From contig JABWCR010000004.1 in the NCBI GenBank assembly GCA_013359125.1, forward strand, positions 1 to 64,000: a DNA stretch of 64,000 nt. Reading direction: 5' to 3'. Position numbers and translations under genes: made by a program. Below, in pieces: positions 18,160-51,187 of this stretch (its first letter is position 1; each line of letters starts with the position of its first letter). The notes beneath the pieces were generated by a model that saw nothing but the letters and a program-made list of their open reading frames with translations, did not search any database and was not told the origin of the DNA. Origin of the DNA: Armatimonadota bacterium (GTDB lineage Bacteria; Armatimonadota; Fimbriimonadia; Fimbriimonadales; GBS-DC).

Positions 18160-18198
18160 GTACTCAAAATTGTGCTACACATTGAAAAAATCCCGTTC
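18160..18198 (+). repeat. 39-bp dispersed repeat, copy A
   Basis: The core GTACTCAAAATTGTGCTACA (18160-18179) is followed by a 10-nt spacer and ATCCCGTTC (18190-18198). The same architecture occurs at 33929-33967 and, inverted, at 51149-51187. It sits between the convergent TPR and psd genes. The rest of the 179-nt gap holds a hairpin-like GGGGAG...CTCCCC at 18236-18267. Confidence 0.85.
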
Positions 18199-18235
18199 GG
18201 ACGGAACGCCGTGCCGAAACAGATAAAGAGCAAGT

Positions 18236-18267
18236 CGGGGAGCGAAGTCATCGTCGCTGCCTCCCCG
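18236..18267. terminator. Hairpin at end of psd
   Basis: CGGGGAG and CTCCCCG can form a 7-bp stem around an 18-nt loop that has an inner GCGA/TCGC pairing. It lies at the 3' end of psd, between convergent genes. No T tract is obvious, so it may be a terminator or a REP-like structure. Confidence 0.3.
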
Positions 18268-18987
18268 TCAAGTTGTCTTGTCGAGCGCTCTTAAGAGCGG
18301 CGTGACGCCGCCGGCAGTTTGGTCGCCGACTTTGCACAGGATTTCGACTTCGGTCGAGAAGACGGCCAGATCGACTTGACTGCCGCGCTCGATAAAGGAG
18401 ACTTTTTGTGCCGGGTGGAGAACTTGGCCTTCCTGGATGTAAGTGGTGATCTTGTTGACGTATTTGTCGGCGATCTCGACCATGGCCAGTTTGACTTTTT
18501 CGCCTTGCAGGAAAATGGTCTGGCGCTCGTTCTCTAACTGGTATCTCTTGCCTAGCAGGTCCATAGCGCGTCGAAAGTAGGTCAGATTCACGTATTCCCA
18601 TAGATCGACCATAGGCAGGTTAACGCGAGCGTCTACTTTGTGAATCTTCTCTACAGCGCCGGCGATGGGCGCATAGTTGTAGTGAACGTCCAGGGGGCTC
18701 ATGTAGATGCCGATCAGCCAGCCTTGGCCCTCTTGGGCGCCTTTGTCCCAGTCGGTGTGAGTTATTTCGCTGATCTCGATGGGGCGGCCTAGTTTTTCGC
18801 ACTCCACCTTGCCCTGCTCGATTCGTCTGATGTAGACGACCTTGCCATCGCACGGCGCCAGGATTAGGTCAGGGTCTTCGGGCGGCTGGCGAACAGGGTC
18901 TCGATAGAACCAGATTTTTCTTAAGAACCATAGAACAGCGCCCCAGGCAAGGGCGATGCCGACAACCGTATAGAGGACTATCTCCAT
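18268..18987 (-). CDS. psd: Phosphatidylserine decarboxylase-like protein
   Basis: A 239-residue membrane-anchored enzyme of the pyruvoyl-dependent decarboxylase family, which would make phosphatidylethanolamine from phosphatidylserine. One N-terminal transmembrane segment (VLYTVVGIALAWGAVLWFL) precedes FRDPVR-type sequence, a metabolite pocket YMSPLDVHYNYAPIAG and the maturation site ERGSQVDLAVF, where self-cleavage before Ser creates the pyruvoyl group. The C-terminus VEILCKVGDQTAGGVTPL also fits. The short form resembles archaetidylserine-type decarboxylases. Its ATG overlaps the carboxylate-amine ligase gene by 10 nt. Confidence 0.85.
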   Translation of the reverse strand: MEIVLYTVVGIALAWGAVLWFLRKIWFYRDPVRQPPEDPDLILAPCDGKVVYIRRIEQGKVECEKLGRPIEISEITHTDWDKGAQEGQGWLIGIYMSPLDVHYNYAPIAGAVEKIHKVDARVNLPMVDLWEYVNLTYFRRAMDLLGKRYQLENERQTIFLQGEKVKLAMVEIADKYVNKITTYIQEGQVLHPAQKVSFIERGSQVDLAVFSTEVEILCKVGDQTAGGVTPLLRALDKTT

Positions 18988-20015
18988 TCGCGCCAGGCCT
19001 TATAAACGGTGAAGGGAAGTCTGACAAGATAGTAGCCGACCAGGCCCGCCGCGCCTTTGACCGCGCTTCCATGTGATTTTAGCGGCGCGCCAGGCTCGAA
19101 GACTCCCGTACGATAGGCGCGATCAAGGGCGGAGTAGGTCTTCTCCAATCCTTGTTGAGCATGGAACTCGGTCAGTTCGTCCGCAATCGTGCGCTCAAAG
19201 AGCCAGTCCGGCGCAGGCGTGATTCTACGCAGTTCGTCTAAGACCGATCGAAGCCTGGGAGTCAGTCCAATGGTGCAGGCGTCCTCTCTCAATGCGGCGT
19301 ATTGCTCCAGGTCGAGCGGCATCGTTTCGGGCCAAAGCGCGATAGCCTGTACAATGCGCAAAACTTCTCGCAATCGGGCCAAGTCCCAGACTGGGTCGAG
19401 CGCTCGCAGTTCGACAGTGCCCAGACGGCGAGAGACGATCAAGTCTTGAAAACGGTAGAGCGGATCGTCGCGCAGCGCCCCGATCGCGAACGAGCAGGCG
19501 GCTCTGGCGGACGGGCCGACCGGGCGACCATTGAGAAACGGGCTGGAAGCGCAGGCCAGGATGAGCAGGGGCATGAAGCGCGCGATGTTCTGATAGATGC
19601 GTTGTCGCTCGCGCACTGGGGCGCCGATGTGGATGTGCAGTCCGCTGGTATTGGTGCTGCCCGCGATGTCGAAGAGCATCCCGACGGGCACAATGTAAGC
19701 GTCATCGACGGCCCAGGCCAAGTCGCGGCGCCGAGCCGACAAGTCGGATAAGACTTCATCGATGGAGGCATGAGCGTCCGTTGAGATTTCGACGCCGCTC
19801 ATCAGGCACTCTTTCGCGTCCTTCCCTCGAGAGAAGTTAGAGGCGGATCGAAAGTAGTATCGCTTCGGGTCCTTTGCCAGGAGCTTTGACAGATAGTAGA
19901 GGGAGTTAAGGGTGGGTCGAGTCGGCTGCGTGATGAAGACTTCTTCTTCGATGCCAAGCGTAATTGCGGTCGATGCTAAAGGCAGGGCTGTAGCCATCGC
20001 CATTGAGCCGGTCAT
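18978..20015 (-). CDS. Carboxylate-amine ligase, glutamate-cysteine ligase type 2-like (YbdK)
   Basis: A 345-residue ATP-grasp-like ligase of the GCS2/YbdK family. Motifs: LGIEEEVFITQP at the N-terminus (Glu residues bind metal), CLMSGVEISTDAHASIDEVL, TSGLHIHIGAPVRER (the GLHVHVG-type block) and a C-terminal RTG and AVKGAAG region. Members ligate a carboxylate to an amine; only some make gamma-glutamylcysteine, so the product is uncertain. The ATG at 20015 overlaps the mqnA stop as ATGA. A link to thiol synthesis would suit the DinB genes nearby, but that is speculation. Confidence 0.8.
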   Translation of the reverse strand: MTGSMAMATALPLASTAITLGIEEEVFITQPTRPTLNSLYYLSKLLAKDPKRYYFRSASNFSRGKDAKECLMSGVEISTDAHASIDEVLSDLSARRRDLAWAVDDAYIVPVGMLFDIAGSTNTSGLHIHIGAPVRERQRIYQNIARFMPLLILACASSPFLNGRPVGPSARAACSFAIGALRDDPLYRFQDLIVSRRLGTVELRALDPVWDLARLREVLRIVQAIALWPETMPLDLEQYAALREDACTIGLTPRLRSVLDELRRITPAPDWLFERTIADELTEFHAQQGLEKTYSALDRAYRTGVFEPGAPLKSHGSAVKGAAGLVGYYLVRLPFTVYKAWREWR

Positions 20016-20764
20016 GCAGTCGTTCCTCGCGCAAAGCGACCGGCTTCGGTCAAGAATCGCTCCAAACCTTCTAATTCTCGATTGCCCAGGTCGTACTTCA
20101 TGGCGTTGGTCAGATAGTCGAGACATTGGTCGAATGGGAGGCTCAGGCGAACGGCTTCTCGCTGGGCGATTTCGGGCAGGCGCGACAAGCCGAGCGCTTT
20201 CGATGATTGGCACACCTCTGCTATCTCATCAAAGGGAGCGTCCGGCGCCGCCAGCCAACCGGCCCAGACGAAAGGCAGTCCGGTCCAATCTCGCCAAACT
20301 TCCCCCATGTCTATCGCGGTCAATCCGCCTCCACTGGCCGACATGCCCGCATCGCCGATCATCAGGGCCGCGTCGGCCAATTCTAACATGGTCTCTAAAT
20401 CGGCGGGGACGGAGACGAACTCTGGCGCGATACCGATGCGTTGCTCAAAGTAGATCCGTGTCAGCAAAGACGAGGTCAGGGAGCCGGAATCCAAGGCGAC
20501 TTTCCGCACATTGCTCAGAGGCATTTTCGAGAAAAGGCGCACGCTTTTGGTAGGGCCGTCGGATGCGATTGCGACCTCGGTTACCAGCCGCAGGTTGGGC
20601 CGCCTTATCAGTTCGACCGAAGATACCAGCGCCGCATCGATCTCGCCTGCCTCCAACTGCGCGGCAAGTTCAGACGGAAGAGCGAAACTAAGTTCGACGC
20701 GCTCCATCCCCTCGATAAGGGGCTTGGCGTTGAGAAACGGCACCGAGCCGAGGCGCAGCTTCAT
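20012..20764 (-). CDS. mqnA: Chorismate dehydratase of the futalosine pathway
   Basis: A 250-residue periplasmic-binding-fold enzyme (MqnA/MqnD family) that dehydrates chorismate to 3-[(1-carboxyvinyl)oxy]benzoate, the first step of futalosine menaquinone synthesis. The N-terminus is LRLGSVPFLNAKPLIEGM; conserved blocks include DAALVSSVELIRRPN, VALDSGSLTSSLLTRI, ALMIGDAGMSA and TGLPFVWAGWLAAPD. The start overlaps the mqnP stop by ATGA, so both are translationally coupled. The next gene (ligase) starts at its stop codon. Confidence 0.92.
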   Translation of the reverse strand: MKLRLGSVPFLNAKPLIEGMERVELSFALPSELAAQLEAGEIDAALVSSVELIRRPNLRLVTEVAIASDGPTKSVRLFSKMPLSNVRKVALDSGSLTSSLLTRIYFEQRIGIAPEFVSVPADLETMLELADAALMIGDAGMSASGGGLTAIDMGEVWRDWTGLPFVWAGWLAAPDAPFDEIAEVCQSSKALGLSRLPEIAQREAVRLSLPFDQCLDYLTNAMKYDLGNRELEGLERFLTEAGRFARGTTA

Positions 20765-21645
20765 GCAACCGCCTTGTCGATCGCCGCAAAGCCAAAGAAA
20801 ACGATGCCCATGATGCCGTTGAGAGTGAAGAAGGCCATGTCTAACCGGCTGAGATCGTTCGCCTTGACTAAACTCTGTTCATAGGCCAGCAGCGCCGCAC
20901 AAAAGAGCGCGCCGACGAAGTACCAGGCGCCCGCTCCTAGGGCTATCCCTGCTCCGATCAGTAATCCAATGCAGGCCAAATGAGAGACTCTGGATGCGAG
21001 CAGCGCGTTGGACGTTCCGAACCGCTGAGGGAAACTGTGCAACCTTTCCTCGCGATCGAAGGCCTCGTCTTGAAGGCTGTAGAGGATGTCGAAGCCTGCG
21101 ACCCAGAACGCGACCGCTCCGGTCAGCCACAGAACTGCCCAGTCGATGTCTCCCGTTACGGCGACCCACGCTGCCGCAGGAGCGATGCCCAAAGACAATC
21201 CCAGCCAGAAGTGCGAGAGCCATGTAAATCGCTTGGCATAGGAGTAGGAGAGGACGACGATCAGCGCGATGGGGGACAGCGCGAGCGCGAGGGGATTCAA
21301 CTGCCAAGCGGCCAAGACCAACAAACCAGCCCCGGCGATGCAAAGCAGCGACATTTGGGGCGCCGTCAATTGGCCGGTCGGCAAAGCCCTCTTCGCGGTT
21401 CGTGGATTTTTGGCATCGACATCGCGATCGATCAATCGATTGAACGCCATGGCCGACGTGCGCGCTCCGACCATAGCGACGACGATCCAGCCGATTGTGC
21501 GAGCCGAGGGGAAGCCGTCCGCGGCATAGATCATGCCGAGCAGAGCAAAAGGAAGCGCAAAGATAGAGTGCTCAAACTTGACCGCTTCAAGAACGACTCG
21601 AATCTGTTGCAGGATGCTTCTTTGGGAACTCGCGCTGTCGATCAT
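20761..21645 (-). CDS. mqnP: UbiA-family prenyltransferase of menaquinone synthesis
   Basis: A 294-residue integral membrane protein with about eight helices that prenylates the aromatic menaquinone precursor. The first Asp-rich motif is in AFNRLIDRDVDAKNPRTAKR, the typical form of MqnP/UbiA-like enzymes in futalosine organisms, and the second is in YSLQDEAFDREE. Near-identical spacing and the ATGA overlap with mqnA support this role over ubiquinone or heme O synthesis. It starts the four-gene operon mqnP-mqnA-ligase-psd; the short upstream gap shares the promoter region with the divergent nucleotidyltransferase. Confidence 0.9.
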   Translation of the reverse strand: MIDSASSQRSILQQIRVVLEAVKFEHSIFALPFALLGMIYAADGFPSARTIGWIVVAMVGARTSAMAFNRLIDRDVDAKNPRTAKRALPTGQLTAPQMSLLCIAGAGLLVLAAWQLNPLALALSPIALIVVLSYSYAKRFTWLSHFWLGLSLGIAPAAAWVAVTGDIDWAVLWLTGAVAFWVAGFDILYSLQDEAFDREERLHSFPQRFGTSNALLASRVSHLACIGLLIGAGIALGAGAWYFVGALFCAALLAYEQSLVKANDLSRLDMAFFTLNGIMGIVFFGFAAIDKAVA

Positions 21646-21725
21646 TGCCCTTTGCTGTTGAGTCTACCCAATGGCGGTGTATACGGGTTTTGCGAAATTT
21701 ATCGCGGCAATCGCGCAACTTGGGC

Positions 21726-21731
21726 TACAAT
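21726..21731 (+). promoter_or_regulatory. -10 element of leaderless nucleotidyltransferase transcript
   Basis: TACAAT ends 7 nt before the ATG at 21739. Transcription would begin at or just before the start codon. No Shine-Dalgarno sequence is present in the 7-nt gap. The same spacing occurs at 45928-45933. Confidence 0.55.
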
Positions 21732-21738
21732 ATGACCG

Positions 21739-22644
21739 ATGTCGATCCAAAAGGCTGTCATCCCGCTTGCAGGCTTGGGAACAAGGCTTTATCCGGTCTC
21801 GACCGTCATTCCAAAGGGCCTTTTGCCGTTTGTTTTGGCGGACGGTTCCGTTGCGACCGGCATCCAACTGATTATCGAGGACGCTTTGCGAGCGGGCATT
21901 GAGAAGATTTGTCTGGTCGTGCATCCTGAATCGCTGGAGCAGTATCAGCGATTCTTCGATGGTTATATAGATCGTTACGCGGCGGCGCTTGCTCTGAAGC
22001 CTGAGCTTTCGAGACAGAGGGAGAGGCTTGTGGAGATGAAGGCTCGAATCGAGTATGCCTTCCAAGATCGGCCGTTGGGTTTTGGACACGCTGTATGGTG
22101 CGCTTCGGACTTTGCAGACGGCGATCCGGCGCTCGTTCTGTTGGGCGATCATCTAGTGATTAGCGATGGGGAAAGCTGCTCGGCGCAGCTCATGAGAGCG
22201 TACGATACGGTAGGCGCCACAACGATCGGGGTTCATCGCATTGATGCGAGCCGCGTAAACCTCTATGGCATACTGCGCGGCCAGGCCACCACAGACCCGG
22301 AGCTCTATGAGGCGCTGGACATTGTGGAGAAGCCGACCGAGCGCTTAGCCGCCGACCAGTTGCAGACTCAAACCCTTCCATCGGGCCAGTTTCTGGCGCA
22401 CTTTGGTCTCTTCGCCTTTACAGGCGGCATTTGGGACGCGCTGGACGAGTTGGTGGGATCGCATAGCGACGACGAGGAGATTCAGCTGACGACGGCCGAG
22501 CGGATGCTCGTCGATCGAGAGCCGTGCTATGCGTATGAGATCGATGGTTCATCGCTCGATTTTGGAATCGCGTCGGGCTATGCCGAGGCTTTCCAGTCCG
22601 TGTCTCGATCGGTATTTCCTTCGCAACTGACCGTCTCGTCGTGA
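21739..22644 (+). CDS. Sugar-1-phosphate nucleotidyltransferase (UTP-glucose-1-phosphate uridylyltransferase-like)
   Basis: A 301-residue nucleotidyltransferase of the GalU group. The N-terminal signature is PLAGLGTRLYPVSTVIPKGL, with the Lys that binds the sugar phosphate, then ALVLLGDHLV for metal and nucleotide binding, GIL...DIVEKPT and SLDFGIASGYAEAF. Length agrees with GalU. The substrate is probably glucose-1-phosphate with UTP, giving UDP-glucose for polysaccharide or lipid synthesis, but dTDP or CDP variants cannot be excluded. It has no co-directional partner. Confidence 0.85.
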   Translation: MSIQKAVIPLAGLGTRLYPVSTVIPKGLLPFVLADGSVATGIQLIIEDALRAGIEKICLVVHPESLEQYQRFFDGYIDRYAAALALKPELSRQRERLVEMKARIEYAFQDRPLGFGHAVWCASDFADGDPALVLLGDHLVISDGESCSAQLMRAYDTVGATTIGVHRIDASRVNLYGILRGQATTDPELYEALDIVEKPTERLAADQLQTQTLPSGQFLAHFGLFAFTGGIWDALDELVGSHSDDEEIQLTTAERMLVDREPCYAYEIDGSSLDFGIASGYAEAFQSVSRSVFPSQLTVSS

Positions 22645-22724
22645 ATCCATTCGCGCATTACAAACCCCGCAAGCACCAAGCAGAATGTGGCAAAAATTAG
22701 CGCTACCGCGTTCCACATGTCCAT
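22578..22724 (-). CDS. Small single-pass membrane protein, uncertain
   Basis: A possible 48-residue protein (MDMWNAVALIFATFCLVLAG, then FVMREWIHDETVSCEGN) with one hydrophobic helix and a charged tail. A GGAGGG lies immediately upstream of the ATG at 22724, but very close to it. Its C-terminal part overlaps the end of the nucleotidyltransferase gene on the other strand by 67 nt. No known family is recognised; it may be only a chance frame. Confidence 0.3.
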   Translation of the reverse strand: MDMWNAVALIFATFCLVLAGFVMREWIHDETVSCEGNTDRDTDWKASA

Positions 22725-22840
22725 CCCTCCCCCGCCCCCACGGCGGCATTTTGTTCCCCACATCAATCTTCCGCGCCAGAGCGATTTGCTCCCCGTCATA
22801 AAGCGCCGGTTTTGCCAAGACAGGTAGACTTTCGAGCGAT

Positions 22841-23245
22841 ATGGACGAGGGCTGGATCGAGACGGAGTTCGATGTGCGTTACGCTGAGACCGATGCGATG
22901 GGCGTCGTCTATTACGCTAACTACTTTGTATGGTTCGAGGTGGCTCGAGGCGCCTATTGCAAGCATCACGGCATCGACTATCAGGCGATCGAGAAGACCG
23001 GCTCTCTGATGGCCGTCGTGGACGCTTCGTGCCGATTTCGCGCTCCCGCTCGATATGGGGACACGATCCGCGTCCGGGCCAGGATAACGGAGCAGAAGCG
23101 AGCGACCGTCTCCGTTCAGTACGAAATCTATAACGCTGTTACGGGGCAGATGCTGGCAACGGGCCATACTCGGCATATGTGGGTTAATGGCTCTGGAAGG
23201 CCCTCTCGGACGCCCGAAAGTCTGAAGGGTCTCTTGGGCGCTTGA
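22841..23245 (+). CDS. Acyl-CoA thioesterase, YbgC/4HBT family
   Basis: A 134-residue hotdog-fold thioesterase. The catalytic motif is VRYAETDAMGVVYYANYFVW, with Asp in the DAMG position and the Tyr-Asn pair typical of YbgC; LMAVVDASCRFRAPARYGD follows. The protein hydrolyses short or medium acyl-CoA and in other bacteria is linked to Tol-Pal or phospholipid metabolism; no tol-pal genes are present here. The ATG at 22841 is preceded by TAGACT 10 nt upstream, another candidate short-leader promoter. Confidence 0.88.
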   Translation: MDEGWIETEFDVRYAETDAMGVVYYANYFVWFEVARGAYCKHHGIDYQAIEKTGSLMAVVDASCRFRAPARYGDTIRVRARITEQKRATVSVQYEIYNAVTGQMLATGHTRHMWVNGSGRPSRTPESLKGLLGA

Positions 23246-23370
23246 CCGAAACTTCTGGATTGAGAGACAATCGCATCGCCGATCGGCAGAAGATTCGGCC
23301 GGACCAAGAGATAGATGCAGGAATCCGGTATCCTAACGGCCAATAATCTTCTTAGGAACGGAGGATTCGA

Positions 23371-27104: not shown

Positions 27105-27110
27105 CCCCCC

Positions 27111-27139
27111 TTGACAAACCAGTTGACCGCTGGTATAAT
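27111..27139 (+). promoter_or_regulatory. Consensus sigma-70 promoter of TetR-RND operon
   Basis: TTGACA (27111-27116) and TATAAT (27134-27139) are both perfect hexamers with a 17-nt spacer, the strongest promoter of the window. The spacer and -10 region carry operator-like palindromes listed separately, which suits a strong promoter held off by the downstream TetR protein. Transcription would start near 27146. Confidence 0.8.
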
Positions 27140-27170
27140 AGTGACCAGTGGTCGCGAATGACCCGCGGTC
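27125..27170 (+). promoter_or_regulatory. Triple palindromic operator for TetR repressor
   Basis: Three related short palindromes follow each other: GACCGCTGGT (27125-27134), GACCAGTGGTC (27143-27153) and GACCCGCGGTC (27160-27170). Their starts are 18 and 17 nt apart. The consensus is GACCNNNGGTC. The first covers the spacer and -10, the second the likely start site. Binding by the adjacent TetR protein is an inference. Confidence 0.7.
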
Positions 27171-27253
27171 TTGATATTTATATTCATAATTTTGATACTT
27201 GCCGCCTTGATTATTTGACTTTCCGTAAATCTGAGAGGTAGACTGAGAATCTG

Positions 27254-29172: not shown

Positions 29173-29173
29173 C

Positions 29174-30622: not shown

Positions 30623-30638
30623 GGGGGGAGGTTAGGCT

Positions 30639-33600
30639 ATGTGGCTCACTCGAGTTGCAATCACTCGTCCGGTTACCATCACCATGTTTATGGTGGGGAT
30701 CCTGGTGTTAGGCATCTATTCGCTCGGCAAGATGAAAGTCGAGATGAACCCAAAGACCGACTTTCCCATCGTAACGGTCGCCACTAGTTATCCGGGCGCG
30801 CCGCCCGATGAGATTGAAACCCTGGTTACCAAGCCGATAGAGGACGCTGCGGGCGCTGTGAGCGGGGTCAAGTCGATCAACTCCGTGTCGCAGTACGGAC
30901 TCTCGATCGTTACCGTCGAGTTTTATTTGGGCACCGACACCAACATCGCGTTTAGCGACGTTCGAGCCAAGGTGGACGCCGCGCGCGGAGAATTGCCTCG
31001 CGAAGTCTTGCCTCCGGTGGTCAGCAAATTAGACAACAACATCCAGCCGGTGCTCTATATCTCGATGACTGGCCGGCGGTCGGCAGCCGATCTGCGAGAC
31101 TTGGCCGATAATGTGATCAAGGACCGTTTGGGCAATGTCTCGGGCGTGGCCAGCGTCGAAGTGGCCGGAGGCGAGCAGCGCGAAATCCAGATCACCGTCA
31201 ATCGCACGCGCCTTGAAGCTTACCAACTGACCATCGGAGACGTGCAAAAGGCTATCCAAGCCGCGAGCCTAAACGTTCCAGCCGGGCAGATTACGGAAGG
31301 CGCCCAGGAGTACGGGGTGCGAATGCTCGGCGAGTTTAAGAGCATCGACGAGATTCGAGATTTGAAGCTGCCATTGCAGAACAGGCGCGATCCTAACTCT
31401 CCCGGACCGGCTATCCGCCTGAAGGACGTTGCCGATGTGCGGGATACTACCGCGGAGCGTCGAGTTTATACTCGTTTGAACGGCAAGGATAACGTGGCGA
31501 TCGTTGTGCAGCAAGCCAGCGATGCCAGCGCAGTCGACGTGGCCGACGGCGTCAAAGCGGTGATTGGGGAGATTGGGCAAGAGTATCCAGACCTCCAGTT
31601 CACCTACACGCAAGACATGTCGGAGAACATCAAAGAGAGCATCTTCGATCTTCGCGTGGCGTTGTTCATGGCGGTCATTCTGGTCGTGCTGATCGTCTAT
31701 CTCTTCCTATACAATCTCCGCGGCACCTTTATCGTTTCGCTCGCCATTCCGACCTGTATTTTCGCCACCTTCATCTTGATCAACTTTCTCGGCTTCTCGA
31801 TCAACTTTATGACGATGATGGCGCTTTCGCTGGCTGTTGGAATCTTGGTCGATGACGCGATCGTCGTCTTAGAGAACACCTATCGGCACTTAACATTGGG
31901 CGAAGACCCGGTGCAAGCGGCCTATAACGGTCGAAGCGAGATCGGCATCGCAGCGATTACGATCACGCTCATCGACGTGGTGGTGTTTTTGCCCATCGCA
32001 TTCATGGGCGGCATTACCGGTCAGTTCTTCAAGTCGTTCGGAATCACGATCGCGGCGGCCACGCTCTTTTCGCTCTTTGTCTCCTTTACCATCACGCCGA
32101 TGTTGGCCAGCCGGTGGTACCGAAAGGGAGAAGGCGTCGAGGAGCCAAAGGGGTTCTTCAAGTGGTTCGATCGCAACTACCGCCGGTTCGAGCGAGGCTA
32201 TCGCAGAGTGTTGGCGTTCGCGCTCAATCATCGCTGGTTCGTGGTCTTGACGGGCAACGGCGCCTTGATCGGTTTGATGGTCGTTATTGGATGGGCCGCG
32301 GCCAACGGCAAGGACTTGTTGCCTTTCCGCTTTGCGCCCGGGCAGGATCAAGGTCAGATATCCGTGCACGTCAAACTGCCGCCGGATTCTTCCCTTGCTC
32401 AGACGGACGCGGTCGTCAAGAGAATCGAGGAAGCTGCGATGGAGTTGGACGACGCGCGCTACGTCAGCTCTCGGATCGGGAGTTCGTCCACCGGCGCTTG
32501 GGGAGCGGGCGACCGAGGCCCGCAGTTTGCCGACGTGAGCGTAACGCTCCATCACAAGAAGAGCCTGCTCGATTCGATTCTCTTTTGGCAGAAGCACGAC
32601 GAAGCCCTTCGCACGCGCCTGGACACCGACATTGCGGCGGAACTGCGCGAAAAGATCGGTGTGATCCCAGGCGCGCGCATCAGCGTCTCGGCCGTCAGCG
32701 GATTTGGCGGCGGATGGGGCGCGCCCATCAACATGACCCTCTCTGGAAAGGACACCGCGGCGCTTGTGCAGACCGCGGACGCCGTGAAAGCCGTCATTGC
32801 GCGGATACCGGGCATCAAAGACCCCGACCTCAGTTGGCAGTCCGGCAAGCCGGAGATCCAAGCCGCTATCGACCGAGTGAGAGCGGCGTCGCTAGGCGTC
32901 AGCTCGGCGGAGGTCGCTGGAACGTTGCGCACAGCGCTAGAAGGCAACACCGATGTCAAGTACCGCGAATTCGGGCGCGAATATCCGATCCGTATTCAGT
33001 TCCGACCGGAAGATCGCGCCGAGATCGGCCAAGTGGGCGACGTGGTTGTCTCGTATGTCGGCGGAATGCCGATTCGATTGCGCGACGTGGCTAGCATGGA
33101 CGTGGCGAGCGGGCCGACCAAGATTCAGCGCAACGACCGGCAGCGCCAGATCGGCGTGCTCGCCCAGCTTCAGCCTGGCTACTCGCCCGGAAACATGGCT
33201 GTGCAAGTACGCGAAGAGCTCAGCAAGGCCAACGTCGTTCCGCCCGGGATCGCCCTAGGCTGGGAAGGCGAGAACAAGGTCATGGCCGACGAGAGCGGCT
33301 ATATGGGCGCGGCGCTCATGCTCGCCTTCATCTTGGTCTACCTGCTGATGGCCGCTCTGTTCGAAAACATGCTCACCCCCCTCGTCATCATGTTCAGCCA
33401 GCCTCAGGCGCTGGTCGGCGCCCTGCTCGCGCTGATCATCACCGGCGTTGGTATGAATATCGTCGCCATGATCGGCATCATCATGCTGGTCGGCTTGGTG
33501 GGCAAGAACGCTATTCTGCTGGTCGATTACACCGGCACGCTAAGGGCGCGAGGCCTGCCCAGGCGCGAAGCCCTGTTGGAAGCCGGTCCGACGCGATTGA

Positions 33601-33887
33601 GACCGATCATGATGACCACTATCGCAATGGTTTTGGGCATGATGCCGATCGCGCTGGCGCTAGGACGCGGCTCGGAGTTCCGCGCGCCGCTCGGGATCGC
33701 CGTCATTGGCGGCCTGATCGTCTCGACCCTGCTGACGCTCGTTGTCATCCCGGCGACCTATACCATCCTGGACGACTTTAGCCAGTGGACAACGAGGCTG
33801 AAGAATCGCGCGCTGGGACGCACGAACGGGGAAGTCTCCTACGAATCGCTCGACGCGATCGATGAGGGGATCAAGTCGCGCGAGTAG
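30639..33887 (+). CDS. RND efflux transporter permease, HAE1/AcrB type
   Basis: A 1082-residue inner-membrane pump with 12 predicted helices and two large periplasmic loops. Evidence includes the N-terminus TRVAITRPVTITMFMVG, MNPKTDFPIVTVATSYPGA, the first TM4 proton-relay pair LVDDAIVVLEN (Asp near residues 405-406), FMGGITGQFF and the second-half MIGIIMLVGLVGKNAILLVDY. It exports drugs, bile-like compounds or other amphiphiles; the substrate cannot be told. Last gene of the TetR-regulated operon. GGGGAGG precedes the ATG at 30639. Confidence 0.95.
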   Translation: MWLTRVAITRPVTITMFMVGILVLGIYSLGKMKVEMNPKTDFPIVTVATSYPGAPPDEIETLVTKPIEDAAGAVSGVKSINSVSQYGLSIVTVEFYLGTDTNIAFSDVRAKVDAARGELPREVLPPVVSKLDNNIQPVLYISMTGRRSAADLRDLADNVIKDRLGNVSGVASVEVAGGEQREIQITVNRTRLEAYQLTIGDVQKAIQAASLNVPAGQITEGAQEYGVRMLGEFKSIDEIRDLKLPLQNRRDPNSPGPAIRLKDVADVRDTTAERRVYTRLNGKDNVAIVVQQASDASAVDVADGVKAVIGEIGQEYPDLQFTYTQDMSENIKESIFDLRVALFMAVILVVLIVYLFLYNLRGTFIVSLAIPTCIFATFILINFLGFSINFMTMMALSLAVGILVDDAIVVLENTYRHLTLGEDPVQAAYNGRSEIGIAAITITLIDVVVFLPIAFMGGITGQFFKSFGITIAAATLFSLFVSFTITPMLASRWYRKGEGVEEPKGFFKWFDRNYRRFERGYRRVLAFALNHRWFVVLTGNGALIGLMVVIGWAAANGKDLLPFRFAPGQDQGQISVHVKLPPDSSLAQTDAVVKRIEEAAMELDDARYVSSRIGSSSTGAWGAGDRGPQFADVSVTLHHKKSLLDSILFWQKHDEALRTRLDTDIAAELREKIGVIPGARISVSAVSGFGGGWGAPINMTLSGKDTAALVQTADAVKAVIARIPGIKDPDLSWQSGKPEIQAAIDRVRAASLGVSSAEVAGTLRTALEGNTDVKYREFGREYPIRIQFRPEDRAEIGQVGDVVVSYVGGMPIRLRDVASMDVASGPTKIQRNDRQRQIGVLAQLQPGYSPGNMAVQVREELSKANVVPPGIALGWEGENKVMADESGYMGAALMLAFILVYLLMAALFENMLTPLVIMFSQPQALVGALLALIITGVGMNIVAMIGIIMLVGLVGKNAILLVDYTGTLRARGLPRREALLEAGPTRLRPIMMTTIAMVLGMMPIALALGRGSEFRAPLGIAVIGGLIVSTLLTLVVIPATYTILDDFSQWTTRLKNRALGRTNGEVSYESLDAIDEGIKSRE

Positions 33888-33928
33888 CGGAGAAGCCTAG
33901 GCGCCTTAGATTATCCAGGGCTCGCTTC

Positions 33929-33967
33929 GTACTCAGAATTGTGCTACAAATCGAGAGATTCCCGTTC
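33929..33967 (+). repeat. 39-bp dispersed repeat, copy B
   Basis: The core GTACTCAGAATTGTGCTACA (33929-33948) differs from copy A at one base. A 10-nt spacer and TTCCCGTTC (33959-33967) complete it. It follows the RND pump gene by 41 nt and precedes the large hairpin. The flanking genes are convergent. Confidence 0.85.
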
Positions 33968-33986
33968 AGCTATAGGAAAGACCATC

Positions 33987-34065
33987 GGGAGGGCGAGCGT
34001 CCCCGCGAGCCGTTGTGTCGGACTCGCAAGTCTGGTCCTTGGCTCGTGGGGACGCTCGCCCTCCC
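33987..34065. repeat. REP-like 25-bp inverted repeat hairpin
   Basis: The left arm (33987-34011, beginning GGGAGGGCGAGCGTCC) and right arm (34041-34065, ending GGACGCTCGCCCTCCC) pair over 25 bp with one G-T wobble, around a 29-nt loop with an inner GACT/AGTC pairing. GC-rich, palindromic and intergenic, it matches the profile of REP/BIME elements or a mobile hairpin. No transposase gene adjoins it. Confidence 0.75.
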
Positions 34066-34112
34066 AATAGCAGGCAAGTCCGATCAAGCAACTTACAGCG
34101 CAGAGGGCCGGT

Positions 34113-34697
34113 TTAGACGGTCGAGGGGCTCGCGTCGAAGAGTCTTCGAGCCTCGAGCCGCGGTGCGTGCAGGAACTTGAGACCCATATAATTTTGGCCT
34201 TTGTCGTCGACGCCTTGGTGAGTGATCTCGCCCGTTGCGACGACGGGAATGTCTTCTGCGAAGAGGCAATACTTGACGACGAGGCAGGCGCCGGCTTCGT
34301 AGGCATTGGGCGAGACGATTTTCATCCCGCCGTGGCTAATGTCGTGGATTTCGCCGTCGAGCCAGCCGCCCTCTTGTTGGTCCAAGTCTCGAAATGTACA
34401 GGCCACTCGGCAGGGTTGGCGGTTGCCGCGTCTGCGCTGTTGCCGCGTCATGACGGTTGAGGCCTGGACCACCAACAGGTCGTCCGAAACGCGCTTGATC
34501 AGGGTATCGACGGTATGCCGCCCTGCCGCGGTTGAAACGGTCATCTGCACCTTCTCGCCGATCGGAAAGAGGCTGGCGGCTCTGGGCAGCGAACCGATTT
34601 GGATGTGAATGCCGGCGTCATCATAGGCAACGATTTTTCCTCTGACAGATACTCCCGTTCTGATTGCCTTCACCCTCGCACTGTGCGCTGCCGCCAT
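34113..34697 (-). CDS. PilZ domain protein
   Basis: A 194-residue cytoplasmic protein with an N-terminal YcgR-like beta domain (VRGKIVAYDDAGIHIQIGSL, residues about 12-80) and a C-terminal PilZ domain. The c-di-GMP binding elements are QRRRGNRQPCR (RxxxR type) and DGEIHDISHGGMKIVSP (D/NxSxxG type). It probably links cyclic di-GMP to motility or exopolysaccharide output. The ATG at 34697 has GGAGG just upstream. It is divergent from leuS and its own promoter is not clear. Confidence 0.85.
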   Translation of the reverse strand: MAAAHSARVKAIRTGVSVRGKIVAYDDAGIHIQIGSLPRAASLFPIGEKVQMTVSTAAGRHTVDTLIKRVSDDLLVVQASTVMTRQQRRRGNRQPCRVACTFRDLDQQEGGWLDGEIHDISHGGMKIVSPNAYEAGACLVVKYCLFAEDIPVVATGEITHQGVDDKGQNYMGLKFLHAPRLEARRLFDASPSTV

Positions 34698-34768: not shown

Positions 34769-34781
34769 TTCCGTTCTCAAA

Positions 34782-37331: not shown

Positions 37332-37388
37332 CTTAAACTTAACGGCTCATCGGGTACCTTTGGACCAATTGGCTAAAGGAGGCTGAGA

Positions 37389-38276: not shown

Positions 38277-38281
38277 GGTTG

Positions 38282-38311
38282 GATGGAGGGCGGATCGAGC
38301 CGCCCTCCATC
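38282..38311. terminator. Perfect 12-bp hairpin after dockerin gene
   Basis: GATGGAGGGCGG (38282-38293) pairs exactly with CCGCCCTCCATC (38300-38311) around ATCGAG. It begins a few bases after the dockerin gene stop. A T run comes only 25 nt later (38336), so it may be a REP-like element or a terminator. Confidence 0.55.
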
Positions 38312-38348
38312 GGCAGGAACCCCAGTTTTTGTGCTGAACTTGACGCCC

Positions 38349-39828: not shown

Positions 39829-39876
39829 CTTGTCGTCTCCTGTTAGAAGGGTAAACGAACGAAGCGCTGTTTGGTT

Positions 39877-40776: not shown

Positions 40777-40780
40777 GAGG

Positions 40781-42238: not shown

Positions 42239-42333
42239 GGCTCGCTGGCGGTTCTTCAGGCCGTTCCCATAGAAAAGATTCGCTAGGCGGGCACGCGCTC
42301 CTTCTTGCAGCAACTTTCTATGGCTTCAGCCAG

Positions 42334-42339
42334 TATAAT
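42334..42339 (+). promoter_or_regulatory. -10 element of thioredoxin-TPR gene
   Basis: TATAAT lies 37 nt before the ATG at 42376, leaving a normal leader with a GGAG ribosome site. The -35 region (CAACTT, 17-nt spacing) is weak. It also lies in the gap upstream of the divergent antiporter gene. Confidence 0.4.
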
Positions 42340-42375
42340 TGATTGTGCGCCTCGGGAGGGGCAAGGAGAACGAGC

Positions 42376-45885: not shown

Positions 45886-45927
45886 TGGCTTTATGTTCGG
45901 GGCCGGAAGGTTCTTACCTGCCTATGC

Positions 45928-45933
45928 TACAAT
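45928..45933 (+). promoter_or_regulatory. -10 element of leaderless ABC ATPase transcript
   Basis: TGCTACAAT carries an extended -10 (TG) and ends 7 nt before the ATG at 45941. Transcription should start at the start codon itself. No Shine-Dalgarno sequence fits in TCCGCCC. Confidence 0.6.
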
Positions 45934-45940
45934 TCCGCCC

Positions 45941-46681
45941 ATGATAGTTTCAGACCGGTTGAGCAAACGATACGGCAGCGTTCAGGCGGTTCGTTCGCTG
46001 AGTCTGACGGTCGATGCGGGGGAGATTTACGGGTTTTTGGGTCCCAATGGCGCGGGCAAGACCACCACGATTAAGATGTTGACGGGATTGTTGAGGCCGA
46101 CAGAAGGTTCGGCGCGAGTTGGCGGCTTCGATTTGGAGAGTCAGCCCGTACAGGCGAAGCGTCTGATCGGGTTTGTGCCGGACAATCCGTTTCTTTATGA
46201 AAAATTGACCGGTAGAGAGTACTTGCGGCTGACGGGCGACTTATGGGGCGTTGACGGCGAGGGTCGAGAAGAGCGGATTGCGGCGCTGTTAGAGGAGTTT
46301 GAGCTTACGGAGAAGGCCGATTCGATCATACAAAGCTACTCGCGAGGGATGAGGCAAAAGACGGCATTAGCGGCGGCGCTGTTGCATTCGCCGAAGGCGC
46401 TGTTTTTGGACGAGCCGACGGTGGGACTGGACCCTAAGGGGGCGCGTCTGCTTAAGGACACATTGTTGAAATTGGCGGATGCTGGCGCAGCGGTGTTCAT
46501 TTCGACGCACATCCTGGAGATTGCAGAGCAACTCTGCGATCGCGTCGGTATTGTGCGCGATGGCGAGTTGATCGCCGAAGGAGAGCCTCGCGAGCTGCTG
46601 ACAAACTCGAACAATGCCTCTTTGGAAGAACTCTTTCTTGAGCTGACCGAGTCGGCAATGGCGCTGGAGCTGGCCGAGTAG
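45941..46681 (+). CDS. ABC transporter ATP-binding protein (NatA-like)
   Basis: A 246-residue ATPase of the ABC-2/NatA class. Walker A is GPNGAGKTTTIKML, the Q-loop region follows, the signature is YSRGMRQKTALAAALLHSP, Walker B is ALFLDEPTVGLDP and the H-loop is ISTHILEIAEQ. The start is ATG 45941, leaderless; a 43-residue longer frame would include the promoter. No ABC permease lies beside it. The next gene, a CPBP membrane protease, begins directly after its TAG, so the two are coupled. Confidence 0.92.
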   Translation: MIVSDRLSKRYGSVQAVRSLSLTVDAGEIYGFLGPNGAGKTTTIKMLTGLLRPTEGSARVGGFDLESQPVQAKRLIGFVPDNPFLYEKLTGREYLRLTGDLWGVDGEGREERIAALLEEFELTEKADSIIQSYSRGMRQKTALAAALLHSPKALFLDEPTVGLDPKGARLLKDTLLKLADAGAAVFISTHILEIAEQLCDRVGIVRDGELIAEGEPRELLTNSNNASLEELFLELTESAMALELAE

Positions 46682-47542
46682 ATGCCGATCGTGTGGAGCG
46701 GAGACAGCGCTAAGTGGTTAGTCGCGCTGGGCGGGCTGAACTGCATTTTGATCTTCGTTTGGTTCGTGCATCATCTGAGAATTCAGCGCGGGCAGGCTGG
46801 ATTGCTGGCCAGGCGGTGGAGTTTGGTGGATTTGGCGGCCGCGGTGCAGTTTGCCTTGGTCATACTGGCTGGAATTGGAATCGCGGCAGCGATCTTGCTC
46901 AGGCCTGTGCTACAAGATGCGTCGGAGCCGTTAGGCGCTCGAGAATTGGCTTTCTTGGCGATCATGACTTTGGCACAGTTCGGCGTCTTGGCCGGCGCCG
47001 CTATCGTGCTGTGCGCAGGCAAGTACCAGATGACTTGGTCCGCGTTCGGTCTAGACCGGCTGAACTCGTCGCGGTTGGCTTTGGGGGCCCTATACGGAGT
47101 TGGGGCGTTGGCGGCTTCCGCAATCTCTATCCGCATTTTTGAAGCGATCGACAAGGGGCCGCTGGGCAATCCGTTTACGCGCGATATAGCGAGCGATCCA
47201 TCGGCTCAGGCGGTTCAAGAGTTTGCGGCCCGAGCGATGGACAGTCCGATCTTTGTGCTCGCGATAGTCGCGGTGGTTGCAGGGCTTGCGCCGTTTTGCG
47301 AGGAGTTGTTCTTTCGAGGCCTGCTGTTGCGCAGTTTTTCTGCGCGGATGGGGCGAGGCTTTGGCATTCTGATCTCGTCGCTGATCTTTGCCGCGGCGCA
47401 CGGGTCGGCGGTCGGGTTCGTGCCTCGGTTTATCATGGGAGCGCTGTTCGCCAGCGTTACATTGCGCACGGGTTCGCTGTGGCCTGCAATCGTTGCCCAT
47501 GCAGCAAACAACTCGGTCGCGCTCTTTGCATTGATGCAGTAG
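46682..47542 (+). CDS. CPBP family intramembrane metalloprotease
   Basis: A 286-residue multi-pass membrane protein with about eight helices. The CPBP motif 1 is PFCEELFFRGLL (Glu-Glu...Arg) and motif 2 is SSLIFAAAHGS with the catalytic His; a further His is in PAIVAHAANNS. It belongs to the CAAX protease/bacteriocin-processing (Abi) family, which cleaves prenylated proteins or confers bacteriocin immunity. Because it abuts an ABC ATPase without a permease, an ATPase-linked membrane protease or permease-like role may be considered. Confidence 0.88.
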   Translation: MPIVWSGDSAKWLVALGGLNCILIFVWFVHHLRIQRGQAGLLARRWSLVDLAAAVQFALVILAGIGIAAAILLRPVLQDASEPLGARELAFLAIMTLAQFGVLAGAAIVLCAGKYQMTWSAFGLDRLNSSRLALGALYGVGALAASAISIRIFEAIDKGPLGNPFTRDIASDPSAQAVQEFAARAMDSPIFVLAIVAVVAGLAPFCEELFFRGLLLRSFSARMGRGFGILISSLIFAAAHGSAVGFVPRFIMGALFASVTLRTGSLWPAIVAHAANNSVALFALMQ

Positions 47543-47552
47543 ACTATCGTCC

Positions 47553-48386
47553 ATGCGATTTTTCCTTTTTGAGGACGATGAAGGCGCTGCGATCGGGGTC
47601 GAGTTTGAGGGCGCGCACTACCGAGCGGGCGACATAGCAACCACTTCGCGGCCCGAAGAGTGGCTCCAAGCGCTCAGCTTGCTGATGTTGACCAATCCGC
47701 GCGGCCTGCCGGAGATCGATGCGAGCGAGATTCGGTTCTTGCCTGCAGTTCTCAACCCATCGAAGGTGATTGCGATCGGGTTGAACTACCGAGACCATTG
47801 CAAGGAGCAGGGCTTGCCGGAACCTGAGTTTCCGACGGTTTTCGCAAAGTACCCTTCGTCTTTGACCGGTCATCGGACCGAAGTTCGGTATCCAAAGGCG
47901 ACCAGCGCATTAGACTACGAAGCAGAATTAGGAATCGTGATTGGGAAGACTGCACAAAACGTAACCGTGGACGACGCGGCCGGGCACATTGCCGGCTATG
48001 CGATCGTTAACGACCTGACGGCAAGGGATTTGCAAAAGTTGGAGAAGCAGTTTGTAAGGGCCAAGTCGTTTGATGGCTTCGCGCCCTGCGGACCCTATCT
48101 CGTTCCAGCGCGAAATGTGCCCGATCCGATGAAGTTAGCGATTCGATTGTGGGTCAACGACGAGCTTCGACAGTCGTCGAGCACGTCGGAGATGGTGTTT
48201 GGTGTCAACCAGTTGGTTTCGCACCTGTCTCAAGGGGCGACGCTACTGCCGGGCGATCTGATCATTACCGGGACTCCGGCCGGGGTTGGATTCTATCGAG
48301 AGCCGCAGGGGTTGTTGAAGCCGGGCGACCGTGTGCGGATCGAACTGGACGGGCTTGGCGTTTTAGAGAACGCCATTGTGGATTAG
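47553..48386 (+). CDS. Fumarylacetoacetate hydrolase family protein
   Basis: A 277-residue enzyme of the FAH fold. Evidence: VIAIGLNYRDHCKEQGL, DYEAELGIVIGKTAQ (the metal-binding Glu-x-Glu-type region), GYAIVNDLTARDLQK, SFDGFAPCGPYLVPA and TGTPAGVGFYREPQG, which is the typical GTPxGVG tail. Such enzymes hydrolyse C-C bonds of acylpyruvates or oxaloacetate-like compounds; substrate not determined. The ATG at 47553 is 10 nt after the CPBP gene; TAGACT, 7 nt before it, would also allow a separate leaderless message. It converges with the DnaJ gene, overlapping by four bases. Confidence 0.88.
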   Translation: MRFFLFEDDEGAAIGVEFEGAHYRAGDIATTSRPEEWLQALSLLMLTNPRGLPEIDASEIRFLPAVLNPSKVIAIGLNYRDHCKEQGLPEPEFPTVFAKYPSSLTGHRTEVRYPKATSALDYEAELGIVIGKTAQNVTVDDAAGHIAGYAIVNDLTARDLQKLEKQFVRAKSFDGFAPCGPYLVPARNVPDPMKLAIRLWVNDELRQSSSTSEMVFGVNQLVSHLSQGATLLPGDLIITGTPAGVGFYREPQGLLKPGDRVRIELDGLGVLENAIVD

Positions 48387-49411
48387 GCGCTCTTGCCCCA
48401 ATCGGAAACGAACCAGCCGGTTAGCAGTCCCGCGAACACCACATTGCCGCCAAAGAGCAACGTAGCGCCGAAAGCCTGAAAATAAGCGACCGCGAAGAGG
48501 ATCGCAAAGAGACCGGCGGCTCCGTAGGCCTTGTTGAGCGATGGGCTGCCGCCTCCGTGAATGGTTGAGATCAGGGCGTAGATTGCGGCGGACAAAGGAA
48601 AGCACAACAGGGCGATGAGCGCCAAGATTAGACCCGGACCCTTAATGGGCAGGGCGTCCTGCACGGCTTGCACCCAGCCGGACGCCGACATGAGCACGCC
48701 TAGCAACAGGCCGCAGATCGCCATGTAAAGAAGCAGGTTGGAGCTCCACGCGCCGATGCCCGCGCTGCCAATGGCTTGGCCGGGCGCCAACAGCGCCATA
48801 AAGACGGTGAAGAGGCAGCCGGAGAAGCCGATGATCTGGGCAGCCATTTTGACGCCGTCCGCTGCAGGAGCGATCGGCGTTGCGGGTTCGGCTGCCCGAG
48901 TCTTGGCCAATCGGGTGAACTTCTTTTGCAGCGAGTCGTTGTTCGGGTCGAGTTGCAGAGCGATTGTGTAGGAGGAAAGCGCGAGTTCAGACTTGCCTTG
49001 TATCCGATAGACATCGCCAACGATGGTATGAGCGAGCGCCGAGCGAGGCTGTATCTTCGCGGCGGCTTTGGCTTTGGCGAGCGCCTCGAAGAAGCGCCCG
49101 GCGACGAAGGCGAGTTCGGCCTCGTGGAGCAGGCGTTTGTACTCCTCGCCCTTGTTCGGTTGGCTTTGCGTTGGTCGCGGCTTCGGCTTTGGCGGCCGTT
49201 GGTTCATCTGTAGCAGCGCATCGAACTGCTTTCTTCGCTCTGGATTGCTGAGAACCTGATAGGCTTCTTGGACTCTAAGGAACTGTTCTTTGGCGGCGCT
49301 GGACGGATTGACGTCCGGGTGAAACTGGCGCGCTAGCTCGCGGTACTTAGCGCGGATTTCATCTTGGGTCGCCTGACGGCTGAGGCCGAGCGTCTTGTAA
49401 TGGTCGGTCAT
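48383..49411 (-). CDS. DnaJ-domain membrane protein
   Basis: A 342-residue protein with a J domain at the N-terminus (MTDHYKTLGLSRQATQDEIR with HPDV at residues 32-35), a TPR-like linker (AKAAAKIQPRSALAHTIVGD) and about five hydrophobic helices in the C-terminal half (residues about 190-340). The J domain recruits DnaK; membrane segments would place this at the inner membrane. Its ATG shares one base with the stop of the GspF gene (TAATG), so the two are translated together. Confidence 0.82.
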   Translation of the reverse strand: MTDHYKTLGLSRQATQDEIRAKYRELARQFHPDVNPSSAAKEQFLRVQEAYQVLSNPERRKQFDALLQMNQRPPKPKPRPTQSQPNKGEEYKRLLHEAELAFVAGRFFEALAKAKAAAKIQPRSALAHTIVGDVYRIQGKSELALSSYTIALQLDPNNDSLQKKFTRLAKTRAAEPATPIAPAADGVKMAAQIIGFSGCLFTVFMALLAPGQAIGSAGIGAWSSNLLLYMAICGLLLGVLMSASGWVQAVQDALPIKGPGLILALIALLCFPLSAAIYALISTIHGGGSPSLNKAYGAAGLFAILFAVAYFQAFGATLLFGGNVVFAGLLTGWFVSDWGKSA

Positions 49412-50610
49412 TATTCCCCAGCGCCTTGGAATATTTGCGCGAAGTAGCCGCTATAGAAGGAGATAACGATGTAGCCGACATAAATCGCGGCGGCCAAGAG
49501 CGCCACGATGCCAAGGATGGTGGCGGCCTGATGACTGCCGACCTCGCTTTCGGCCTCATAGAACTCGGCGACCTTGTTGACCATTGAATCCAATGAGCCG
49601 GTCTGTTCGCCCGTAGCGACCATATCGATCACCATGGGCGGGAACACGCCCGTGGCCGCGATGCTCTCGGCAATCCCTGCTCCTGATTCCAGTTTTGTGG
49701 CAACGGGCGAGATGCTGGCTGCCAGGTACTCGTTGCCGGAGGCTTCCGCAGAAATACGTATGGCATGGGTGATGGGCACGCCTGCGGCATAGAGGGCGCC
49801 CAACGCCCGTCCAAATCGAGCGAGGCAGATTTGGCGAAGAGTCTTTCCGATCCAGGGAAGCGAAATCAAAATCGCGTCGATGGCGCGGCGAATGGTCATG
49901 CTTTGGGTTGCAATCCGCCAGGCAGCCCAAACAGCGAAGAGAACTCCAAAGATTTTGAGAAAGGTCATAGCCATTTGGATCGCGAACTCGCCAGGCGGCA
50001 TTCCCTGGCCAGTGATCATATAAATGATCGGGCCGGGAAGAGCAGGAATGATGAGCGCCATGAACATGACCAATTTTGGGTAGAACGTGAGGCGGCGTAT
50101 CAGTCGGCGCAAGGCTAATTCGCGCTCCAGGTACTCTGCGATCTGCCGCGAGGCGCTTTCTAGCAATCCGCCTTCGACGCCTACTCGGATGATTGCGCGC
50201 TGCACCTTGCTAAAGATGTGCGGATGTCGGTCGAAAGCCTCGGCCAGATTCTCGCCGCCCATGACTGAATCTCGGATATTGAGCAGCGCTCGACGCAGTT
50301 TGACGTTGCCCGCCTGATTGCTCAATGTGTACAGCACTTGAACCAAGGGGACGCCTGCCGCGATCATGGTGGCGAATTGTCGGAAGAAGATGGCGAGATG
50401 GTGAAGGCCGACGCCGCCGAAGAGCGGTCGGACGACGCGGTCTCGGGCGGCTGTAGCGGCTGTTACCGGCTCGGCATCGGCGTACATTTCGAGCGGCCAG
50501 AAGCCCATGCCTCGCACTTGGTCGTTGGCGTCGAGGCGCGATGCGGCAAACACGGAGCCTTGCACCGTGTTGCCCTCTTGATCTCGCGCAATGTATCGAA
50601 AGACCGCCAT
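49411..50610 (-). CDS. Type II secretion/type IV pilus assembly platform protein (GspF/PilC-like)
   Basis: A 399-residue inner-membrane protein with two GspF domains. Visible blocks include FRQFATMIAAGVPLVQVLYTL in the first and GRALGALYAAGVPITHAI plus DMVATGEQTGSLDSMVNKV in the second, each followed by a hydrophobic region; three transmembrane segments are apparent. It forms the platform that a PilB/GspE ATPase turns to extend pili or pseudopili. No pilB or pilD is nearby. The prepilin-like gene at 6088-6741 is a possible client but lies far off. Confidence 0.88.
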   Translation of the reverse strand: MAVFRYIARDQEGNTVQGSVFAASRLDANDQVRGMGFWPLEMYADAEPVTAATAARDRVVRPLFGGVGLHHLAIFFRQFATMIAAGVPLVQVLYTLSNQAGNVKLRRALLNIRDSVMGGENLAEAFDRHPHIFSKVQRAIIRVGVEGGLLESASRQIAEYLERELALRRLIRRLTFYPKLVMFMALIIPALPGPIIYMITGQGMPPGEFAIQMAMTFLKIFGVLFAVWAAWRIATQSMTIRRAIDAILISLPWIGKTLRQICLARFGRALGALYAAGVPITHAIRISAEASGNEYLAASISPVATKLESGAGIAESIAATGVFPPMVIDMVATGEQTGSLDSMVNKVAEFYEAESEVGSHQAATILGIVALLAAAIYVGYIVISFYSGYFAQIFQGAGE

Positions 50611-50653
50611 AATGAGCGTCCGTGGCGATAATTATGCATCAAAGGGCGCACCG

Positions 50654-51172
50654 ATGATCTTTTGGGTCAAGCAACGGCCTCTTCTTGCGGCGGTTCTGAT
50701 GGCGAGCGTGCTGCTGTACGATTTGCCTAGAGAAGTTTCTCTGGCGGCGGCTGCTAGCGCATTGTCCGCTTTAATTTTTGGGGGTCTTGCACTGGGGCCG
50801 ATTGCAGGATCCCGGACATTTCTGAACGAGATGCGCAGGTTGTTTGCGAATGCCCCATTGAAGACGGCTACGGTCGCAGGGCTGTTTGCAGCCTTGGTCG
50901 AGGAGCCATTGTTTCGGTTGGCGATTCAAGACCGTTTTGGTCTTGTCGCGGCTTTGTTCGCATTCTGGGCGCTCCATTTGCGGCCCGGGTTTCCAATAGC
51001 CTCTTTGACGGCGGCTGTCCCAGCAACGATTTTGGCGCTTTCTTACGAACTGGCTGACGACTTTTGGGCGAACGCTATCGCGCACGGCGTCTTTGATTTT
51101 GGTGCAGCGCTGTCGATTGGGACTTTCCTTCGTCGTCAAGATCCGCGCGAACGGGATTCTGCAAAAATGTAG
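50654..51172 (+). CDS. CPBP family intramembrane protease, small
   Basis: A 172-residue membrane protein with about five hydrophobic helices. The CPBP motif is ALVEEPLFRLAIQDR (Glu-Glu-x3-Arg) and a second His-containing segment is FWANAIAHGVFDFGAA. It is shorter than the 286-residue CPBP protein at 46682. The start ATG at 50654 gives MIFWVKQRPLL. The last eight residues (RERDSAKM) and the TAG stop lie within copy C of the 39-bp repeat, which therefore has rewritten the C-terminus. Confidence 0.75.
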   Translation: MIFWVKQRPLLAAVLMASVLLYDLPREVSLAAAASALSALIFGGLALGPIAGSRTFLNEMRRLFANAPLKTATVAGLFAALVEEPLFRLAIQDRFGLVAALFAFWALHLRPGFPIASLTAAVPATILALSYELADDFWANAIAHGVFDFGAALSIGTFLRRQDPRERDSAKM

Positions 51173-51187
51173 CACAATTTTGAGTAC
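51149..51187 (-). repeat. 39-bp dispersed repeat, copy C
   Basis: On the minus strand this is GTACTCAAAATTGTGCTACA (51187-51168), a 10-nt spacer and ATCCCGTTC (51157-51149). The core is identical to copy A. It overlaps the end of the small CPBP gene and provides its TAG stop. The gap before the convergent PEP-CTERM gene also holds the hairpin at 51236-51253. Confidence 0.85.

Follow-up and report, generated by a model that had tools for sequence, protein, structure and literature searches.

A short intergenic repeat with an almost invariant 10-bp core is dispersed through the draft genome of this bacterium (2,824,748 bp, or 2.82 Mb, in 47 contigs). The repeat family is previously undescribed and was seen in one species only, having been found in no other genome searched. 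Our leading explanation, to which we give about an even chance, is that the repeat serves as the end (boundary) module of small, non-autonomous composite (BIME/MITE-like) intergenic elements that make up a new, lineage-specific family. Evidence for mobility comes from inward-facing pairs, from cargo that moves and from insertions at gene ends. The lack of target duplications and of a DDE-type transposase (PF01609 and rve, draft genome), the predominance of single copies and the conservation of those single copies speak against a simple MITE or REPIN.

Anatomy and constraint of the repeat

The window, a 64-kb stretch of DNA (positions 1-64000 of contig C4 in genome G000; C4:1-64000), holds three copies. 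Copy 1 (CGTTTGTACTCAAAATTGTGCTACACATTGAAAAAATCCCGTTCG) lies at 18155..18199 on the plus strand, with its core, TTGTGCTACA, at 18170-18179. Copy 2 (GCTTCGTACTCAGAATTGTGCTACAAATCGAGAGATTCCCGTTCA), also on the plus strand, lies at 33924..33968 with its core at 33939-33948, and copy 3 (GATTCGTACTCAAAATTGTGCTACATTTTTGCAGAATCCCGTTCG) lies on the minus strand at 51148..51192 with its core at 51168-51177. The sequence-only reading had reported a 39-bp repeat at 18160-18198, 33929-33967 and 51149-51187, and all three copies are present there: the pattern GTACTCARAATTGTGCTACA-N10-WTCCCGTTC matches exactly three times in the window, with 0 mismatches and with 0 matches expected from dinucleotide shuffles. 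The 39-bp unit is real but longer than reported, beginning 5 nt earlier at GATTC and ending at CGTTCG.

Copy 1 separates genes for a TPR-repeat protein (17312..18088, plus strand) and a phosphatidylserine decarboxylase (18268..18987, minus strand), and copy 2 separates genes for an AcrB-type RND transporter (30684..33887, plus strand) and a PilZ-domain protein (34113..34673, minus strand). At copy 3, a gene for an Rce1/CPBP-type protease (50591..51172, plus strand) was missed by the codon-usage gene caller and recovered by Pfam; its last codons and TAG stop (51170-51172) are supplied by the copy, and the gene on the other side encodes a PEP-CTERM protein (51275..52024, minus strand). Given the protease gene, all three gaps are convergent, as had been claimed. 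Copies were also correctly said to adjoin hairpins, and the hairpin beside copy 2 is an inverted pair (33987..34065; arms at 33987-34010 and about 34041-34065) of a second dispersed palindrome, R1 (GGCTCGCGGGGACGCTCGCCCTCCC). No match to Rfam was found in the window.

The sequence-only reading proposed a search of the genome on both strands, and further copies are present: 89 were found at no more than three mismatches (44 forward, 45 reverse), and the reversed-pattern control gave 0. A 51-column profile gave about 118 full copies at E<1e-6 in the whole draft genome, a count that is perhaps slightly low because 150 first-look candidates were scored. Few of these copies are truncated, and their edges are sharp. 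By hand count from the profile matches, about 26 of the 29 copies near contig ends face the break with their interior side, as expected if the interior runs into longer repeats, where assembly fails. Many contig breaks inside repeat islands (e.g., L064, L075, L076 and L080) carry a long inverted repeat, CTCCCCTCCCTAAACTCGCCAGAGTTTGGGGAGGGGATACAGGGGAGGGGCACAATCG, which may be a further repeat family.

The unit of about 45 bp has the layout GATTCGTACTCAWWW-TTGTGCTACA-N~11-TCCCGTTCG, often with GGG just upstream. When aligned, the copies form a sharply bounded GATTC-GTACTCA-WWW-TTGTGCTACA-spacer of 11-TCCCGTTCG, with an excess of GGG 3 nt before GATTC. The genome copies uphold the idea of a constrained multi-block DNA element and revise its details. 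Three blocks are found in place of two, the middle one, TTGTGCTACA, carrying nearly all of the absolute constraint, and the spacer that had been described as varying freely has conserved positions at T22, A27 and A29.

When the core was left unspecified in the search, 87 of the 88 matches were real and 86 had TTGTGCTACA intact. Among 102 copies picked without the core, there was 1 change in the 10 core positions compared to 196 in 21 flank positions (p about 5e-32). Even in the 32 lowest-scoring full copies, 0/320 core positions were changed and the flanking blocks differed at 12–31%. Rare variants were distributed in the same way, with 30 in the flanks versus 1 in the core (p=9e-5). A core that is intact even in degenerate copies is not predicted by simple post-insertion decay. 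Elsewhere in the motif, adjacent dinucleotides alternate as units (AA/TT at 8-9, TT/AA at 20-21 and TC/GG at 31-32).

The consensus can fold as a hairpin with a bulged T. Across copies, the positions that would pair showed no covariation between arms, and in an arm-swap folding test the observed mean of -1.34 was no better than that of shuffled arms (-1.39 +/- 0.09); recognition as an RNA or single-stranded DNA hairpin was therefore rejected as unlikely. As swapped arms leave the folding energy unchanged and the arms do not covary, the motif is predicted from sequence to be recognised most likely as duplex DNA. Some copies, tending to lower scores (e.g., L228, L230, L234 and L235), carry a AAAAGGCCGCTTTT-like sequence in place of TCCCGTTCG; they are possibly an ancestral subfamily with the same core.

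Placement, pairing and mosaics

We compared gap types in 460 kb of the genome, consisting of the window and 20 stretches, most of which were chosen around copies, using a home-made codon-usage gene caller. Among the gaps called, 34 were convergent, 62 divergent and 196 tandem, and 12, 5 and 10 of these, respectively, were occupied. Counting the third window gap as convergent, 13/35 convergent gaps were occupied compared to 14/257 other gaps (Fisher p about 7e-7); the rates themselves (35–37% for convergent gaps) are inflated by the choice of copy-enriched stretches, and the comparison between gap types should not be. The convergent-gap preference suggested by the window is borne out in this sample, and placement is not random with respect to gene orientation. 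Single copies occur in divergent gaps too, and tandem-gap copies are 9 sense and 17 antisense relative to the gene. This placement resembles avoidance of 5' regions more than it does a function on the sense strand. There was no strand preference by GC skew (23:19), and a role as a replication-strand marker was rejected.

Besides the protease gene in the window, a pyroglutamyl peptidase gene (pcp, at L019) gains its tail, ERDFLQM*, from the repeat, and solved homologues do not align to this tail. About 12 genes have a TGA or TAA stop codon that overlaps the start of the motif by two bases.

Neighbouring copies within 600 bp of each other are arranged 17 inward, 0 outward and 5 direct (p=1.5e-5). 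The interiors of these pairs span 28–285 bp and contain REP-like palindromes, with little else in common and no common coding sequence. There are 15–17 such two-ended units, and most copies are single. No excess flank identity indicative of a target-site duplication was detected for pairs or singles, extending the observation already made for the window. Flank identity was 0.799 for pair members versus 0.835 for singles (permutation P=0.87), so singles are at least as conserved as pairs.

Sharing of sequence between copies is often one-sided. In 22 copy pairs, sequence is shared 3' of the motif and not 5' of it; at L002, L024 and L058, a long common interior is present and homology ends exactly at GATTC. 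A further 26 copy pairs share 5' but not 3' sequence, and most of these come from a single family in which an R1 palindrome is fused to the upstream side. Modules thus change at the edges of the motif, which form the joints. The palindromes themselves are concentrated around the motif. Among the matches listed, 34/38 contig-interior clusters of R1 lie within 500 bp of a copy, as do 41/50 contig-interior clusters of a further palindrome, R2 (GGAACGCCAGGCTTCTGCCTGGC), and this zone makes up 3.6% of the genome. Many copies stand alone without REPs.

Candidate enzymes and related systems

A pattern search of 290 other genomes of the phylum gave no copy, and neither did profile searches of 17 genomes of the same family (none of the same genus among them) and, with stricter filters, of 60 other members of the order. 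There was no exact pattern in GTDB genome contigs or IMG/VR and no match in plasmids, and phage matches to the motif reached E values of 0.2–0.8 only, which is chance level. A literature search returned no paper on such a repeat; among the papers listed, the core string matched unrelated ones alone, in fields where primers are usual. One relative from the same family (G175, L118-L120) has 36 copies of a repeat containing GTTTGTAGCCTACCTGTGAGGGATTGAAAC within 36 kb, probably a CRISPR array.

The draft genome encodes no DDE_Tnp_1 (PF01609) or rve protein, the two DDE-type families searched, and no 1–3 kb element bounded by two copies was found among the profile-match positions. A gene at the end of contig C4 was considered as an autonomous element and proved to be a low-complexity reading frame only. 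Taken with the plasmid, phage, GTDB and IMG/VR searches, the absence of PF01609 and rve genes led us to reject an IS end traceable to a known IS, in agreement with the sequence-only reading, which had argued against an ordinary IS end.

Four Y1_Tnp genes are present: two RAYTs above the NCBIfam cut-off, one apparently frameshifted RAYT and one sigma-70 region-4 fusion. Within the 3.2–3.3 kb around these four genes there is no motif copy, and other palindromes are present. The RAYT gene at L100:840-1960 has tandem AGTACCGCCGGCGTCC(C/T)CGCCGGCC palindromes on both sides, evidently the REP family of that RAYT. The RAYT at L101:1240-2025 is split over two overlapping frames, a probable frameshift, and is flanked by CCCTCCACACC(..)GGTGTGGAGGG palindromes. 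The palindromes flanking both RAYTs also occur in the repeat islands. The fourth gene (L099:1399-2097, plus strand; G000:C18:22723-23421) is single-copy, fuses an IS200-like Y1 domain to a sigma-70 region-4-like HTH, lies downstream of pyrB and is found in 18/18 genomes of the family. It looks like a vertically kept, domesticated transposase that is catalytically dead, because aligned members have NQV(H/I/N) or EQVH where active Y1 enzymes have their HxH pair.

Several known systems resemble the family in part. Like BIMEs and REP/REPINs, it consists of short extragenic repeats in about a hundred copies that occur as inverted doublets with a variable spacer, as singles and in mosaics with other repeats, in a genome with RAYTs. 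As in BIME-type mosaics, R1 and R2 clusters lie mostly within 500 bp of the motif, and modules shuffle at the motif edges. Unlike REP/REPIN sequences, the motif is not palindromic, has no conserved hairpin in the arm-swap test, lacks a GTAG-type tetranucleotide tag among its conserved positions and is absent from the 3.2–3.3 kb RAYT loci. RAYTs act on palindromes that follow a GTAG-type tag (PMC8266576), and REPIN doublets are reported to be better conserved than singles (PMC3116915), the reverse of the flank identities measured here.

Prokaryotic MITEs are likewise small, non-coding, intergenic and high in copy number, with some stop codons supplied by the element, and the inward ends of the 15–17 two-ended units here are TIR-like. 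In contrast to MITEs, the family shows no target-site duplication, most copies are single-ended, interiors are not common across the family and a search for PF01609 and rve in the draft genome found no cognate transposase. In the neisserial intergenic mosaics, dRS3 and RS elements also bound modules of other repeats; dRS3 is a 20-bp palindromic repeat, whereas the motif here is asymmetric, 45 bp long and built around an invariant 10-bp core. The chromosome-organising sites matS and parS are short palindromes that are similarly dispersed, with a highly conserved duplex core in one clade. Unlike these sites, the motif is long, asymmetric, mosaic-associated and absent from relatives.

Explanations for the repeat

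Copy number, anatomy, constraint, placement, pair geometry, mosaic junctions and stop-codon overlap are shown directly by the sequence; that the repeat is mobile, that a protein recognises it and that a mobiliser acts on it in trans are inferred. As the end module of a composite element, the motif would be read by the predicted protein in its duplex form. Recognition would rest mainly on TTGTGCTACA, flanked by weaker contacts to GATTCGTACTCA in one direction and to CC(G)TTC, roughly one to two helical turns off, in the other. Either a lone motif or two inward-facing motifs enclosing cargo would form the unit that is copied into many gaps, and insertions would survive mainly beside the 3' ends of genes, particularly between convergent ones. 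Palindromes of the REP type, including some that belong to the resident RAYTs, would gather inside and beside these units, producing mosaics like BIMEs or the neisserial mosaic elements. The putative mobiliser may sit in unassembled or unbinned sequence. Further observations count against an end module: no Y1 transposase gene lies beside a copy, and some copies, those of the R1-linked family, share 5' but not 3' sequence.

The conservation of singles and the core test leave a host-protein binding site as a serious rival, which we regard as possible but tentative. Each copy would be a duplex site under selection, concentrated between convergent genes and bound by a nucleoid, domain-boundary or insulator-type protein, with mosaics made by local duplication and recombination. 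The nearly invariant core, with its single rare variant, fits such a site, as do the alternation of AA and TT with no TpA next to the core, of the kind seen in shape readout, the share of convergent gaps occupied in the copy-enriched stretches and the lack of a PF01609 or rve transposase in the genome. However, the conserved stretch, at 45 bp or more, is long for a single site, inverted pairs face inward without exception, and shared cargo stops exactly at the motif. Copies also overlap gene ends as insertions would, show no strand or replication bias and are absent from all relatives searched.

Both a protein-binding site and a miniature mobile element had been offered by the sequence-only reading; both stand, and probably both apply. 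In one specific combination, which we consider unlikely, a lineage-specific class of dispersed duplex sites was copied in the manner of mobile elements and then selected for a host function, for example as a boundary or transcription-collision site between convergent genes, with a putative protein reading TTGTGCTACA and REP palindromes landing there.

It is decidedly doubtful that the motif is a non-palindromic, linker-like part of BIME-type mosaics, with an IS200-like (Y1) REP-associated transposase doing the copying. The clustering of REP palindromes at the motif, the two RAYTs above the cut-off plus a broken one, and the presence in islands of the palindromes flanking L100 and L101 are consistent with this explanation, but no RAYT lies beside a copy, many copies lack REPs, the motif has neither a conserved hairpin nor a GTAG-type tag, and singles are not decayed.

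An orientation-dependent element of mRNA 3' ends, which had been suggested earlier, or one that works as a terminator or by RNA pairing, would account for the convergent-gap preference and the closeness to stop codons; it is very improbable, since tandem-gap copies show no sense bias and the arms do not covary, and single copies in divergent gaps and the lack of an Rfam match in the window also stand against it. It is equally improbable that the repeat forms the inverted termini of a conventional DDE insertion sequence: inward pairs and contig breaks on the interior side would fit, and full-length copies of a high-copy IS could drop out of a draft assembly, but neither target-site duplications nor PF01609 or rve proteins were found, searches of GTDB contigs, IMG/VR and plasmids gave no match, and the interiors have no coding sequence in common.

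With about 120 copies in which the core is the most constrained part, a DNA-binding protein or recombinase is predicted in this bacterium. The repeat anchors most REP-type palindromes of the genome, making it a natural case for how intergenic mosaics start and for why convergent gaps collect them. If single copies are kept by selection, the line between the end of a mobile element and a host regulatory site would be blurred.
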